Shown piece after piece: positions 20,111 through 64,000 of a DNA stretch of 64,000 bases. The notes below the pieces were generated by a model that saw only the letters and a list, made by a program, of their open reading frames with translations, searched no databases and was not told the origin of the DNA. How positions within the stretch are numbered: position 1 is the first letter of the stretch; each line of letters begins with the position of its first letter. The stretch lies in contig NC_019678.1 in the NCBI RefSeq assembly GCF_000316665.1, forward strand, positions 4,774,001-4,838,000, written 5' to 3'. Origin of the DNA: Rivularia sp. PCC 7116. Lineage in GTDB: Bacteria; Cyanobacteriota; Cyanobacteriia; Cyanobacteriales; Nostocaceae. Position numbers and translations under genes: made by a program.

Positions 20111-20356
20111 CCAGTGTTTTAGGTTGTATAGATAATTGTGTAAAATTGCTTATTTTACTGCAATAACTTAGATCGCTTTGTATTTTAGCCCGCCGGGGAA
20201 TCAAATTCCCCATCTCATAGCAAAAGTCCTCTTAAAAGGACTAAAAACACAATTCAAAATTAATAGGCTTATCTAACGCTATTATTCAACTCCTAACTCC
20301 TAACTATCAAATAGCAATCACCAATTGCCTATTACCAATTACCAATTACCTTTACC

Positions 20357-40073: not shown

Positions 40074-40080
40074 TTCTCAA

Positions 40081-41562
<1,482 letters not shown>

Positions 41563-42899: not shown

Positions 42900-42972
42900 T
42901 CCAGGGTGCAGGAGTTGAACCTGCCTAACACGAATTATGAGTTCGTTGCCTCAACCGCTCGGCCAACCCTGG
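42900..42972 (-). tRNA. tRNA with CAU anticodon, probably tRNA-Ile2 (lysidine type)
   Basis: On the minus strand a complete 73-base cloverleaf: acceptor CCAGGGT/ACCCTGG, D arm GCCGAGCGGTTGAGGC, anticodon arm ACGAA-CTCATAA-TTCGT with anticodon CAU, variable GTTAG, T arm GCAGG-TTCAACT-CCTGC, discriminator A. CCA is not encoded. Software would call it tRNA-Met. The D arm of the GGCYGARYGGTTRA type and the CAACTCATAATTG-like anticodon arm resemble chloroplast trnI-CAU, so it is more likely the isoleucine tRNA whose C34 is changed to lysidine. Not the initiator: C1 pairs with G72. Confidence 0.9.
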
Positions 42973-59943: not shown

Positions 59944-60261
59944 CTAATTGTTATTTTCACCAAGAACTGATTGTAAGCGAGTTCTGAATTCTCCTTTAGG
60001 ATGTCCTCCTTTCACTTCACCTAAAATCTTGACTTCTTCTTCTGGAGAATCACAGACAATATAAGTAGGCCATCCCATTTCTGACTTATCGGGATACTGT
60101 GTTAATAAAACTTTACGATACTTGCGGTAAGTTGCGGTATCCTGCATTTTGACATCAATAAATTCTAAACCAAGCTCTTGGGCTACCTTTTGGTCATAAA
60201 AAGACATTTTGTGGCAAATGCCACAGTCTTCACTAGAAAACTTAATTACAGCTAAAGTCAT
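59944..60261 (-). CDS. Thioredoxin-family protein with CGIC active site
   Basis: 105 residues. VIKFSSEDCGICHKMSFYDQ places a CxxC redox pair at residues about 13 and 16, and WPTYIVCD holds the cis-Pro equivalent; GEVKGGHPKGEFRTRL ends the fold. It looks like a small soluble thioredoxin-like protein of the kind found only in cyanobacteria and plastids. The redox partner is unknown; NTRC (20357-21721) is not adjacent. Start ATG at 60261. Confidence 0.85.
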   Translation of the reverse strand: MTLAVIKFSSEDCGICHKMSFYDQKVAQELGLEFIDVKMQDTATYRKYRKVLLTQYPDKSEMGWPTYIVCDSPEEEVKILGEVKGGHPKGEFRTRLQSVLGENNN

Positions 60262-61041: not shown

Positions 61042-61104
61042 ACAAAAATCCCCCAGCGTGCTTGTAGGCTTACCGGGGGAGTTAGTTATCAGGGTGCATC
61101 TACC
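61042..61104 (+). ncRNA. nsiR1: NsiR1 copy 1
   Basis: Hairpin C5 at 61050 with CATCTACC ending at 61104; consensus hairpin. It is the first unit and lacks TCCGGA at the standard distance upstream (only TCCAGA at 60999). Confidence 0.8.
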
Positions 61105-61168
61105 AATTCTATGTACTCGTTTGAACAATCACTTTCCGGATGAAATTGTAATTAAGTAGCTAATTACA

Positions 61169-61231
61169 TACAAAAACCCCCAGCGTGCTTGTAGGCTTAC
61201 CGGGGGAGTTAGTTATCAGGGTGCATCTACC
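61169..61231 (+). ncRNA. nsiR1: NsiR1 copy 2
   Basis: Hairpin C5 at 61177. Upstream TCCGGA at 61135-61140, 16 bases, then TAGCTA as -10. Downstream flank is the ATTACATG variant. Confidence 0.85.
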
Positions 61232-61307
61232 AATTACATGTACTGTATTTAACAGCGACTTTCCGGATAAAACTGTATAAATATGTTTGGGTGTAGATAT
61301 TTTGCAT

Positions 61308-61370
61308 ATAAAAATCCCCCAGCGTGCTTGTAGGCTTACCGGGGGAGTTAGTTATCAGGGTGCATCTACC
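61308..61370 (+). ncRNA. nsiR1: NsiR1 copy 3
   Basis: Hairpin C5 at 61316. TCCGGA (61262-61267) lies 26 rather than 16 bases from the -10-like TAGATA, making the step 139 bp. Confidence 0.83.
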
Positions 61371-61446
61371 AATTCTATGTACTCGTTTAAACAATCACTT
61401 TCCGGATAAAACTGTATAAATATGTTTGGGTGTAGATATTTTGCAT

Positions 61447-61509
61447 ATAAAAATCCCCCAGCGTGCCTGTAGGCTTACCGGGGGAGTTAGTTATCAGGGT
61501 GCATCTACC
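61447..61509 (+). ncRNA. nsiR1: NsiR1 copy 4
   Basis: Hairpin C5 at 61455 with GTGCCTGT in place of GTGCTTGT. Same long TCCGGA spacing (61401-61406) as copy 3. Confidence 0.83.
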
Positions 61510-61576
61510 AATTACATGTACTGTATTTAACATCTACTTTCCGGATGAAATTGTAATTAGGTATCTAAAATTAAAT

Positions 61577-61639
61577 ACAAAAAACCCCCAGCGCGCTTGT
61601 AGGCTTACCGGGGGAGTTAGTTATCAGGGTGCATCTACC
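61577..61639 (+). ncRNA. nsiR1: NsiR1 copy 5
   Basis: Hairpin C5 at 61585 with variant GCGCGCTTG. First of the exact 130-bp series; TCCGGA at 61540-61545, -10-like TATCTA 16 bases on. Confidence 0.85.
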
Positions 61640-61706
61640 AATTCTATATACTTGTTTAAACAATCACTTTCCGGATGAAATTGTAATTAGGTATCTAAAA
61701 TTAAAT

Positions 61707-61769
61707 ACAAAAATCCCCCAGCGTGCTTGTAGGCTTACCGGGGGAGTTAGTTATCAGGGTGCATCTACC
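61707..61769 (+). ncRNA. nsiR1: NsiR1 copy 6
   Basis: Hairpin C5 at 61715, consensus sequence. TCCGGA at 61670-61675 with TATCTA 16 bases downstream. Confidence 0.87.
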
Positions 61770-61836
61770 AATTCTATGTACTTGTTTAAACAATCGCTTT
61801 CCGGATGAAATTGTAATTAGGTATCTAAAATTAAAT

Positions 61837-61899
61837 ACAAAAATCCCCCAGCGTGCTTGTAGGCTTACCGGGGGAGACAGTTATCAGGGTGCATCTACC
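61837..61899 (+). ncRNA. nsiR1: NsiR1 copy 7
   Basis: Hairpin C5 at 61845; the linker reads GACAGTTATC instead of GTTAGTTATC. TCCGGA at 61800-61805. Confidence 0.86.
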
Positions 61900-61966
61900 A
61901 ATTCTATGTACTCGTTTAAACAATCGCTTTCCGGATGAAATTTTAATTGGGTATCTAAAATTAAAT

Positions 61967-62029
61967 ACAAAAATCCCCCAGCGTGCTTGTAGGCTTACCG
62001 GGGGAGTTAGTTATCAGGGTGCATCTACC
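61967..62029 (+). ncRNA. nsiR1: NsiR1 copy 8
   Basis: Hairpin C5 at 61975, consensus sequence. TCCGGA at 61930-61935; the spacer has TTTTAATTGG. Confidence 0.87.
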
Positions 62030-62096
62030 AATTCTATGTACTTGTTTAAACAATCGCTTTCCGGATGAAATTGTAATTGGGTATCTAAAATTAAAT

Positions 62097-62159
62097 ACAA
62101 AAATCCCCCAGCGTGCTTGTAGGCTTACCGGGGGAGTTAGTTATCAGGGTGCATCTACC
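62097..62159 (+). ncRNA. nsiR1: NsiR1 copy 9
   Basis: Hairpin C5 at 62105, consensus sequence. TCCGGA at 62060-62065. Confidence 0.87.
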
Positions 62160-62226
62160 AATTCTATGTACTCGTTTAAACAATCGCTTTCCGGATGAAA
62201 TTTTAATTGGGTATCTAAAATTAAAT

Positions 62227-62289
62227 ACAAAAATCCCCCAGCGTGCTTGTAGGCTTACCGGGGGAGTTAGTTATCAGGGTGCATCTACC
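62227..62289 (+). ncRNA. nsiR1: NsiR1 copy 10
   Basis: Hairpin C5 at 62235, consensus sequence. TCCGGA at 62190-62195. Confidence 0.87.
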
Positions 62290-62356
62290 AATTCTATGTA
62301 CTCGTTTAAACAATCACTTTCCGGATGAAATTGTAATTGGGTATCTAAAATTAAAT

Positions 62357-62419
62357 ACAAAAATCCCCCAGCGTGCTCGTAGGCTTACCGGGGGAGTTAT
62401 TTATCAGGGTGCATCTACC
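62357..62419 (+). ncRNA. nsiR1: NsiR1 copy 11
   Basis: Hairpin C5 at 62365 with GTGCTCGT and GTTATTTATC variants. TCCGGA at 62320-62325. Last intact unit; its downstream TCCGGA (62450-62455) drives the decayed copy 12. Confidence 0.85.
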
Positions 62420-62481
62420 AATTATATGTACTCGTTTAAACAATCACTTTCCGGATGAAATTTTAATTAAATATATAATTA

Positions 62482-62542
62482 AATACAAAACCCTAGCACT
62501 TTTGGGTTTATTAGGTAAGACAGTTATCAATTTGAATCTACC
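62482..62542 (+). ncRNA. NsiR1 copy 12, decayed
   Basis: CCCTAGCACTTTTGGG replaces the C5/G5 hairpin, and CAGTTATCAATTTGAATCTA-CC replaces the core. It still follows TCCGGA plus 16 bases plus TATATA, so it may be transcribed as a divergent RNA. No TCCGGA follows it. Confidence 0.6.
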
Positions 62543-62626
62543 AGTTCTATGCACTGCATTTAACCACTACTTATTAAAGTGAATTATAATTTAGATGCAA
62601 ATAAATTACGCTGATTATAGACAATG

Positions 62627-62668
62627 CAAAAGTAGTTATTAGTTTGCACCTACTTATTGCATGTAGTA
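62627..62668 (+). repeat. Highly decayed NsiR1 unit (copy 13)
   Basis: AGTAGTTATTAGTTTGCACC-TACTTATTGCATGTA aligns with the array core and its right flank (GTTAGTTATCAGGGTGCATC...), but the hairpin and TCCGGA are lost. Confidence 0.5.
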
Positions 62669-62737
62669 TAAGTAATGTTTTTGTATTGAGTAGATCTGTA
62701 TATTTTTATATTTTTTTTGAAAACGAATAATTAGAAA

Positions 62738-62834
62738 TAAAAAAACCCCTAGTGGAAGGCAGTCAACCAGGGGAGTTAGTTATCAGGGTGCATCTACCAA
62801 TTAAATGTTCTAAAGTTAACCAGTATCTTCCGGA
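62738..62834 (+). ncRNA. Detached, divergent NsiR1 unit (copy 14)
   Basis: Hairpin CCCCTAGT...ACCAGGGG (62746-62773) has a different loop, but the core GGGGAGTTAGTTATCAGGGT-GCATCTACCAATT is identical to the array, ending at 62798. TCCGGA follows at 62829-62834 with TGATAG 17 bases on. The hairpin keeps its pairing while its sequence differs, as expected of a selected structure. Confidence 0.7.
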
Positions 62835-63105: not shown

Positions 63106-63131
63106 TCCGGATAAAGTTGTAAAGGTAGATA
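63106..63131 (+). promoter_or_regulatory. Candidate DIF+ type promoter of hetF
   Basis: TCCGGA (63106-63111), 14 bases, then TAGATA (63126-63131). TCCGGA is the -35-region element reported for heterocyst-specific (DIF+) transcription starts in Anabaena. Transcription would begin near 63138, leaving a leader of about 120 bases. The spacer is shorter than the 16 bases seen in the array. Confidence 0.55.
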
Positions 63132-63260: not shown

Positions 63261-64000
63261 GTGACCCAGGAATTTCACATTTCCGTAACCCCAGTAGGGC
63301 AAAACGACTACTTGGTGCGGACGGAACAAGTCGCCCCTGGGGTACCCTTAGCAGAAGAACTGGTAAGGTGGCCGGTGGCTGATTGGTTAGCCGCTGCTGG
63401 GAGTTTAATGAACGACCCATTGCAGTCAGTATTGCAGGGCGATGCGATGGCGTTAAGCGCCTGTTTAGAAGAGACAAATGCAAGAAACTCAGTCAATTTG
63501 GTGGCACTGGGTCAGCAACTTTATAATGCGCTGTTTCAAGGCACTCTTAGGGACAGTTGGATTACGGCGCAAGGTATTGCCCAAAACCACCAACAGGTAT
63601 TGCGCTTGCGTTTGGGCTTAAAGGATACGAAATTAGCTCGTCTTCCTTGGGAGGTAATGCATCAAGCCGATCGCCCAATTGCCACCGGTCCTTATATTGC
63701 TTTTTCTCGCTATCAAAGCGGAATGAGCGGAACGTCTCGCCTACCATCAAGAAATATTCCCCAGTTATCAACGAATGGTGGAATTAGAGTCTTGATGGTG
63801 ATTGCTTCTCCTGCCGATCAAGTGCGTCTTAACCTGTTAAAACAAGAAGCTATCAGGCTGCAAGCGGAACTTGAGCGTAAAAACCAAGGCGGGGATCATC
63901 TTCCTGAAATTGAACTTTCGGTACTAGAGCAACCTGGAAGAGAAGAATTAACCCAAGCTTTAGAACAAGGAAATTATCACGTTCTCCACTATTCTGGCCA
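63261..64000 (+). CDS. hetF: HetF, CHAT-domain protease required for heterocyst differentiation (5' part)
   Basis: The frame starts with GTG at 63261, five bases after AGGAG, and stays open to the window end: 246 codons plus two bases. It reads MTQEFHISVTPVGQNDYLVR and continues with LRLRLGLKDTKLARLPWEVM and GPYIAFSRY, typical of a CHAT (caspase HetF Associated with TPRs) domain, reaching LEQGNYHVLHYSG, just before the catalytic His. The Cys half lies outside. HetF is needed for heterocyst formation and for normal cell division, and works with PatU3 and HetR. The NsiR1 array directly upstream supports the identification. The first methionine is encoded by GTG. Confidence 0.9.
   Translation, partial: MTQEFHISVTPVGQNDYLVRTEQVAPGVPLAEELVRWPVADWLAAAGSLMNDPLQSVLQGDAMALSACLEETNARNSVNLVALGQQLYNALFQGTLRDSWITAQGIAQNHQQVLRLRLGLKDTKLARLPWEVMHQADRPIATGPYIAFSRYQSGMSGTSRLPSRNIPQLSTNGGIRVLMVIASPADQVRLNLLKQEAIRLQAELERKNQGGDHLPEIELSVLEQPGREELTQALEQGNYHVLHYSG

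Follow-up and report, generated by a model that had tools for sequence, protein, structure and literature searches.

Are the short tandem repeats upstream of hetF in Rivularia sp. PCC 7116 genes for the small RNA NsiR1, and to what wider family would such an RNA belong? The repeats lie at positions 61042-62834 of the window, by which we mean the whole 64,000-nucleotide stretch of contig NC_019678.1 that was analyzed (positions 4,774,001 to 4,838,000, forward strand; assembly GCF_000316665.1). In Nostoc PCC 7120, 12 NsiR1 copies are reported opposite hetF, with HetR-dependent expression early in heterocyst formation (PMC9045159, PMC8406250). NsiR1.1 is described as a repressor of hetF, and NsiR1.4 as a repressor of the hetP-like gene alr3234 at its start codon (PMC9045159). 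Twelve short repeats are also reported upstream of hetF in Nodularia spumigena CCY9414 (PMC3610870).

The window feature is very probably a well-preserved, ordinary NsiR1 array. On its origin, we lean towards a broader reading. NsiR1 would be the amplified form of an ancient HetR-associated small RNA family with the core GATGCACCCTGAT and two promoter classes, one carrying TCCGGA (the hetF-antisense copies and a copy between cobM and lgt) and the other a palindrome (a sister RNA between gatB and argJ). Such a family would be a core HetR output even in cyanobacteria without heterocysts. The hetF copy could have originated beside the gatB RNA.

The NsiR1 array of the window

A scan of the 64-kb window with the NsiR1 covariance model RF02399 identified 12 copies above the gathering score of 39 bits. 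They lie between 61042 and 62799 and score 54.3-70.6 bits, with E-values of 6.1e-8 to 5.7e-12, and are therefore not chance matches. A looser Rfam threshold returned the same 12 copies and added two weak matches to an unrelated Bacillus family. All 12 copies are on the minus strand and hetF is on the plus strand (63261), so the RNAs are directed away from hetF. Eleven copies recur every 130 bases or so as an array, and the twelfth (62738-62799) is nearest to hetF. The features of the locus are as follows.

61042-61105, minus: NsiR1 copy 12, the most distant from hetF, 58.1 bits; TCCGGA at 61135-61140 (sequence)
61169-61232, minus: NsiR1 copy 11, 54.3 bits; TCCGGA at 61262-61267
61308-61371, minus: NsiR1 copy 10, 59.4 bits
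61447-61510, minus: NsiR1 copy 9, 58.8 bits
61577-61640, minus: NsiR1 copy 8, 58.5 bits
61707-61770, minus: NsiR1 copy 7, 58.1 bits
61837-61900, minus: NsiR1 copy 6, 55.8 bits
61967-62030, minus: NsiR1 copy 5, 58.1 bits
62097-62160, minus: NsiR1 copy 4, 58.1 bits
62227-62290, minus: NsiR1 copy 3, the commonest transcript sequence, 58.1 bits; fold -20.1 kcal/mol
62357-62420, minus: NsiR1 copy 2, 57.6 bits
62485-62543, minus: decayed NsiR1 copy, TCCGGA absent and terminator eroded (alignment and sequence)
62620-62655, minus: possible further relic, marginal
62738-62799, minus: hetF-proximal copy, equivalent of NsiR1.1, terminator arm unlike that of the array copies, 70.6 bits
62829-62834, minus-strand promoter: DIF1-type -35 element, TCCGGA, for the copy nearest hetF (sequence)
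63261-63998, plus: hetF open reading frame (ORF), first 246 codons, cut by the end of the window (844 codons at full length in the genome; 80 relatives of the translation kept)

The general layout of the original prediction is borne out. Tandem Repeats Finder gives a period of 130 with 8.1 copies and 95% matches at 61445-62490, and longer periods span 61042-62490, in agreement with head-to-tail units of about 130 bp. The distance from the array to the downstream hetF ORF runs from 0.46 to 2.2 kb, where 0.4 to 2.2 kb had been claimed. The element TCCGGA stands 30-35 bases 5' of the matched start in 12/12 copies, and these 12 sites are packed into 1.7 kb. The conserved core and the C5/G5 hairpin are present in the array copies, and the hairpin is the minus-strand terminator stem, followed by a T run. 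The proposed orthology is also supported, with 12 copies over the cut-off directly upstream of a hetF orthologue.

The original prediction did not give the strand, antisense to hetF, and its division into intact and decayed copies needed correction. Eleven intact and three decayed copies had been proposed; the total of 14 stands, and the split is 12 intact copies, one clear relic and one marginal relic. The stretch at 62738-62799, taken for a decayed copy, is the best RF02399 match in the genome at 70.6 bits, compared with 54.3-59.4 bits for the other window copies. The clear relic (62485-62543) aligns to a unit with a score of 57, while 500 shuffles reach 26 at best and 16 on average. The marginal one (62620-62655) scores 26, equal to the best of 500 shuffles, and lies 112 and 144 bases from the 5' ends of its neighbors. 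Mean identity among the 11 array copies is 97.4%, and 6/11 are identical over 62 nt; their mean identity to the hetF-proximal copy is 77.8%.

The array itself is ordinary because PCC 7120 also has 12 copies in the same place and orientation. According to the accounts of PCC 7120 (PMC9045159, PMC8406250), both loci combine 12 copies upstream of and opposite hetF, TCCGGA (DIF1) and an RNA about 60 nt long, with inner copies that are identical and a hetF-proximal copy that diverges from them. The window locus differs from that array in its array copies, whose inner terminator arm departs from the Rfam consensus (54-59 bits), and in the two relics, one clear and the other possible, that lie between array and proximal copy. 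The proximal copy starts 462 bases from the hetF ORF, compared with about 180 (178-182) in many Nostoc loci. The Nodularia array, from another lineage, is likened to the window by its published copy number and place rather than copy by copy. Copy number and decay state were originally thought specific to this strain; 12 copies are reported in PCC 7120 and Nodularia CCY9414 as well, and the count of decayed copies was wrong.

An extra TCCGGA occurs at 63106-63111, between the array and hetF. It stands 12 bases before a plus-strand GGTAGATAAACC, which recalls the NsiR1 5' end.

Two NsiR1 versions at hetF loci

Over its N-terminal 246 residues, HetF is the same as in Rivularia sp. MS3 and shares 97% identity with the protein of Calothrix parasitica. 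A survey covered 80 hetF loci of named genomes and counted cores with up to three mismatches. An antisense core is present upstream of hetF in 74/80 loci and a sense core in 0/80; one of the 74 (L092) has its sole core 5.9 kb from hetF. Two of the six loci without a core (L053, L094) span less than 400 bases upstream, and the other four, all Nostoc (L079, L102, L106, L108), have no recognizable NsiR1 core within the 6 kb upstream of hetF that they span. TCCGGA accompanies 329 of the 424 NsiR1 copies at the surveyed loci.

In five Rivularia/Calothrix loci (L043, L044, L045, L047, L048), array copies are 87.2-95.5% identical to the window array and proximal copies are 90.3-96.8% identical to the window proximal copy. 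Within each of these loci, the array and the proximal copy are only 69.8-74.2% identical. Since identity across loci exceeds identity within loci, the two versions have been kept apart, and array and proximal NsiR1 are two separately conserved lines in these five loci of the Rivularia/Calothrix group. Such separate lines fit different targets. In seven farther loci (L049, L051, L052, L063, L075, L085, L086), array and proximal copies show no separation: array-array identity is 71.6-76.7%, proximal-proximal identity 69.4-79.7% and array-proximal identity within a locus 67.3-80.5%. The window array is thus one clean example of a known system, from a group with two separately conserved NsiR1 versions.

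An orphan copy and a sister RNA family

The genome (8.73 Mb, 3 contigs) holds a HetR gene (PF03574) and two HetP-family genes. A whole-genome RF02399 search returned 16 matches, comprising the 12 copies at hetF, one orphan and three below the cut-off. The orphan (L009 5097-5147, minus, 50.8 bits) has TCCGGA and lies between cobM and lgt. The three matches below the cut-off (31.5-37.2 bits) belong to a sister array of four copies between gatB and argJ (L010 6563-7166, minus), of which the fourth was not reported as a match. Gene names at these two loci come from ORFs recognized by look only. No Rfam family reaches its cut-off at the gatB-argJ locus. The sister core is AAGTAGATGCACCCTGATG, or AATCAGATG in one copy, and is followed by a terminator; the core AGATGCACCCTGAT is common to NsiR1 and the sister array. 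TCCGGA is absent from the sister array, which has instead an inverted repeat near -35, with an exact GGGN5CCC in 2/4 copies. The TCCGGA promoter was likewise found in 0/44 sister copies at 30 loci of family f1, which we take to be Nostocaceae.

A model, R1, was built from the four sister copies of this genome. It matches 247/388 genomes of the heterocyst-former order and 152/291 genomes of a class sample; some genomes are in both samples, and a few low-scoring matches are false positives. The first 30 loci fetched are flanked by argJ, gatB or both in 30/30 cases, and gatB or argJ was found at 30/40 R1 loci of HetR-positive genomes, mostly outside the order. HetR (PF03574) is present in 236/388 order genomes and 150/291 class genomes. 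In the order, 209 genomes have R1 and HetR, 38 R1 only, 27 HetR only and 114 neither. In the class sample, R1 is present in 140/150 genomes with HetR and 12/141 without it, leaving 10 with HetR only and 129 with neither. R1 tracks HetR in both samples with very small Fisher p-values (2e-38 in the order and 7e-55 in the class), in a test that ignores relatedness.

No description of the gatB-argJ RNA was found in the literature searched, which comprised titles and the starts of abstracts; supplements and earlier surveys may list it. A full-text search with the core sequence returned only papers unrelated by title.

The cobM copy is present in 12/12 f1 genomes asked, 6/11 other HetR-positive genomes and 0/6 HetR-less genomes of the same list, a count that leaves out G089, where only a cobM paralogue was found. 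It is also present in six HetR-less genomes of genus g71 and in G364.

One genome, G571 of family f48, joins the two RNA types in a single locus (L247 1548-4302). The order there is gatB (plus), R1 RNA (plus), a thioredoxin-like gene (minus), NsiR1 (minus) and hetF (plus). The R1 RNA and NsiR1 are about 0.5 kb apart and point in opposite directions, and the thioredoxin-like gene resembles the ORF at window 59944-60261. This joined locus, seen in one genome, suggests that one RNA type may have arisen from the other.

A HetR-type palindrome at the sister promoter

From crystal structures, GGGN5CCC is reported as the portion of its site that HetR requires, with GAGGGGTCTAACCCCTC as the site at hetP; imperfect sites are also in print, such as TTGGCTCAAACCCAT at patA (PMC4192349). 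A second source describes GGGN5CCC as a potential HetR-binding site, of which the copy before hetR is dispensable for hetR up-regulation (PMC7377430). The GGGN5CCC-type site of hetP and hetZ in these accounts (PMC4192349, PMC7377430) thus has a counterpart at the sister RNA. The sister gene is unlike hetP and hetZ in that its product is a small RNA and its site is also conserved in lineages that do not belong to the heterocyst-former order.

The palindrome has a fixed place, as its GGG starts 41-43 bases before the R1 core in 83/83 matches. It is present in 52/53 HetR-positive loci outside f1 (61/63 copies), the one without it being L241. With L211, which a T-run filter dropped although core and palindrome are present, these loci number 54. 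Most HetR-positive loci are best-scoring matches, which possibly favors conserved promoters. For comparison, GGGN5CCC occurs in 205/10800 random 30-base windows of HetR-positive loci. Within f1, an exact palindrome is found at only 15/38 HetR-positive loci (22/54 copies).

Among R1 loci of genomes without PF03574, 5/30 have the palindrome. Ten further HetR-less loci comprise seven of family f8, which hold the RNA without the palindrome, and three (G436, G284, G159) in which no core is present and which appear to be false matches. Together, these loci cover 40 of the 47 R1-positive genomes without PF03574, all except G475, G488, G496, G507, G560, G566 and G628. The palindrome is found in 0/32 loci of families f8 and f18, and no sampled genome of either family has HetR. 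The five HetR-less genomes that keep it are G258 and G199 (89% and 82% complete) and G008, G144 and G393 (97-99% complete). A HetR protein search gave a hit in 0/18 genomes, these five and 13 others, a set that included no positive control genome.

A gatB tree was built from the 82 of 122 loci with enough gatB. The four f8 rows group apart from the eleven f18 rows, in clades with support of 95 and 83 in the Shimodaira-Hasegawa-like approximate likelihood ratio test (SH-aLRT). The minimum number of changes is four for the HetR state and six for the palindrome state. At most four HetR contrasts are independent, and only one of them on well supported branches; four are too few for a sign test.

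These observations make the gatB-argJ RNA a concrete candidate HetR target, as its gene, with a HetR-type site, occurs in most HetR genomes sampled and has no such site in two HetR-less families. HetR may control this RNA directly. Alternatively, the palindrome may belong to another regulator, or the link with HetR may reflect nothing but shared ancestry, an explanation to which we give a substantial, though less than even, chance. It gains from the small number of independent contrasts, from the palindrome in five genomes without detected HetR, of which three are 97-99% complete, and from the exact palindrome in just 15/38 f1 loci despite HetR. The site before hetR, reported as dispensable (PMC7377430), shows in addition that a GGGN5CCC need not matter. 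It fits less well with a pattern that is, in published accounts, the HetR recognition site (PMC7377430, PMC4192349) and that holds one place in all 83 matches. The f8 and f18 rows, in separate gatB clades, all lack the palindrome though the RNA stays, which also speaks against it. The deletion of hetR and of patX in Leptolyngbya BL0902, with RNA-seq, has been reported (PRJNA1087288).

NsiR1 outside the heterocyst-former order

Lineages with HetR outside the heterocyst-former order are not known to form heterocysts. Within the order, RF02399 matches 280/388 genomes, including all 236 with HetR; 13 candidates were scored per genome, and NsiR1 copy numbers there are lower bounds. At E up to 1e-6, the order has strong matches in 234/236 HetR-positive and 21/152 HetR-less genomes. 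Outside it, 80/80 HetR-positive genomes picked from 125 match RF02399 over the cut-off, with 2-11 matches each. G393, the only HetR-less genome outside the order that was asked, matches as well.

At 30 loci outside the order, an exact TCCGGA accompanies 21/31 copies and the palindrome 0/32 cores. NsiR1 adjoins hetF, in the opposite direction, in 10/30 of these loci, and three loci lie by cobM and/or lgt. In HetR-less groups, the exact TCCGGA is found in 1/24 copies of family f32 and 0/6 copies of genus g71 of family f18, and nearly all of these copies are one change away from it. That NsiR1 occurs outside heterocyst formers is only partly new, since an NsiR1-like RNA of Limnospira was noted before. 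In Limnospira indica PCC 8005, which bears HetR and is without heterocysts, the 57-nt RNA162 is said to resemble NsiR1 (PMC8400943); the likeness rests on that published description and concerns a single reported RNA.

In the HetR-less family f32, NsiR1-like copies persist, frequently as tandem copies, with a -35 element that is mostly TCCCGA or TCCTGA. The loci concerned are L278-L281, L284-L287, L289, L290 and L300.

Structure of the RNA

Structure was analyzed in 34 NsiR1 copies, all good model matches: three from this genome, 25 from the 30 loci outside the order (L248-L277) and six from f1. The first 16 bases are invariant in 34/34 copies. The conserved 5' end, as matched by the model, is UGGUAGAUGCACCCUG, with a small GGU/ACC stem. 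Covariation is silent on the small stem because the stem never varies. In the terminator, 34 cells are altered on both sides, compared with 10.7 in shuffles, and 0/500 shuffles are as high. The terminator stem is 94.7% paired, compared with 30-64% (maximum 63.8%) when it is slid along the alignment. As read from the sequence, this is a Rho-independent terminator. The C-rich core shared by the RNAs would be the part that binds targets. A scan of the region with generic sigma-70 and terminator consensus patterns gave fewer sites than shuffles and recovered no NsiR1 promoters or terminators.

Proposed mechanism and alternatives

Each unit is predicted to be a separate gene for a minus-strand RNA about 60 nt long, equipped with a DIF1-type promoter element of its own, a conserved 5' end and a Rho-independent terminator. 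By analogy with PCC 7120, HetR would turn the copies on at the onset of heterocyst formation, probably through HetZ acting on the DIF1 promoters. The hetF-proximal copy would pair with the hetF mRNA leader and so repress hetF translation, as is reported for its counterpart in PCC 7120. The 11 near-identical array copies would supply a large dose of the second version, which may act in trans on other mRNAs, again as in PCC 7120. The array may thus represent an expansion, in heterocyst formers, of an older HetR-associated small RNA family to which the cobM-lgt orphan and the gatB-argJ sister, with their common core, would also belong. The distribution of this family is as described above; its control by HetR is our inference.

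Several results weigh against parts of this scheme. Disabling nsiR1.1 in PCC 7120 is reported to have altered hetF-gfp reporters little (PMC8406250). With the proximal copy 462 bases from the ORF, the antisense overlap needs a long hetF leader. Counted as whole pairs, changes on both sides in the 34 copies show no excess (4, compared with 3.5 in shuffles). The stem plus T run is present in single-sequence folds of two window copies, and the energies of these folds are not clearly below those of shuffles (z scores of -0.86 and -1.62). In a crude duplex test with guessed start codons and leaders, this genome's two HetP-family genes ranked 38 and 43 of 44; the 30-nt array and proximal queries were identical, and neither gene is established as the alr3234 orthologue. 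A simple rule linking HetR to the palindrome is weakened because the f1 site is often degenerate though HetR is present.

The repeats could instead work chiefly at the DNA level, as a series of TCCGGA sites beside hetF to bind or titrate the DIF1 regulator, with the RNAs as a by-product. The dense packing of 12 sites within 1.7 kb and the small effect of disabling the last copy in PCC 7120 (PMC8406250) would suit such a role. We consider it very improbable, as the transcribed part is itself conserved, with 16 invariant bases and a covarying terminator; the single cobM copy is also conserved away from hetF; and the RNAs of PCC 7120 are reported to be detected and to regulate targets (PMC9045159). 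That the frames of about 70 residues encode a small-protein family is extremely improbable: eight frames of 69-71 residues that start with GTG or TTG do lie in or reach into the array, but they are on the strand opposite the RNA, are a product of the 130-bp repeat, and overlie a hairpin that covaries as an RNA helix, and plus-strand peptides were rejected on these grounds. The 71-residue frames of which the original prediction warned do exist; they are on the plus strand, opposite NsiR1. The reading of the repeats as small RNA genes is the one we retain.

Other features of the window

Past the array, on the side away from hetF, lies a small conserved ORF (59944-60261, minus) that is thioredoxin-like, a name given from appearance only. 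In distant lineages (L247, L259, L268), a relative of this ORF is found beside NsiR1 and hetF. Farther away, the window contains a thiamine pyrophosphate (TPP) riboswitch at 40075-40172 on the plus strand (67.8 bits) and a transfer RNA gene at 42900-42972 on the minus strand. Two short repeats of other kinds are also present, the heptamer ATTACCA in about six copies at 521-565 and a smaller CAATTAC array at 20315-20350.

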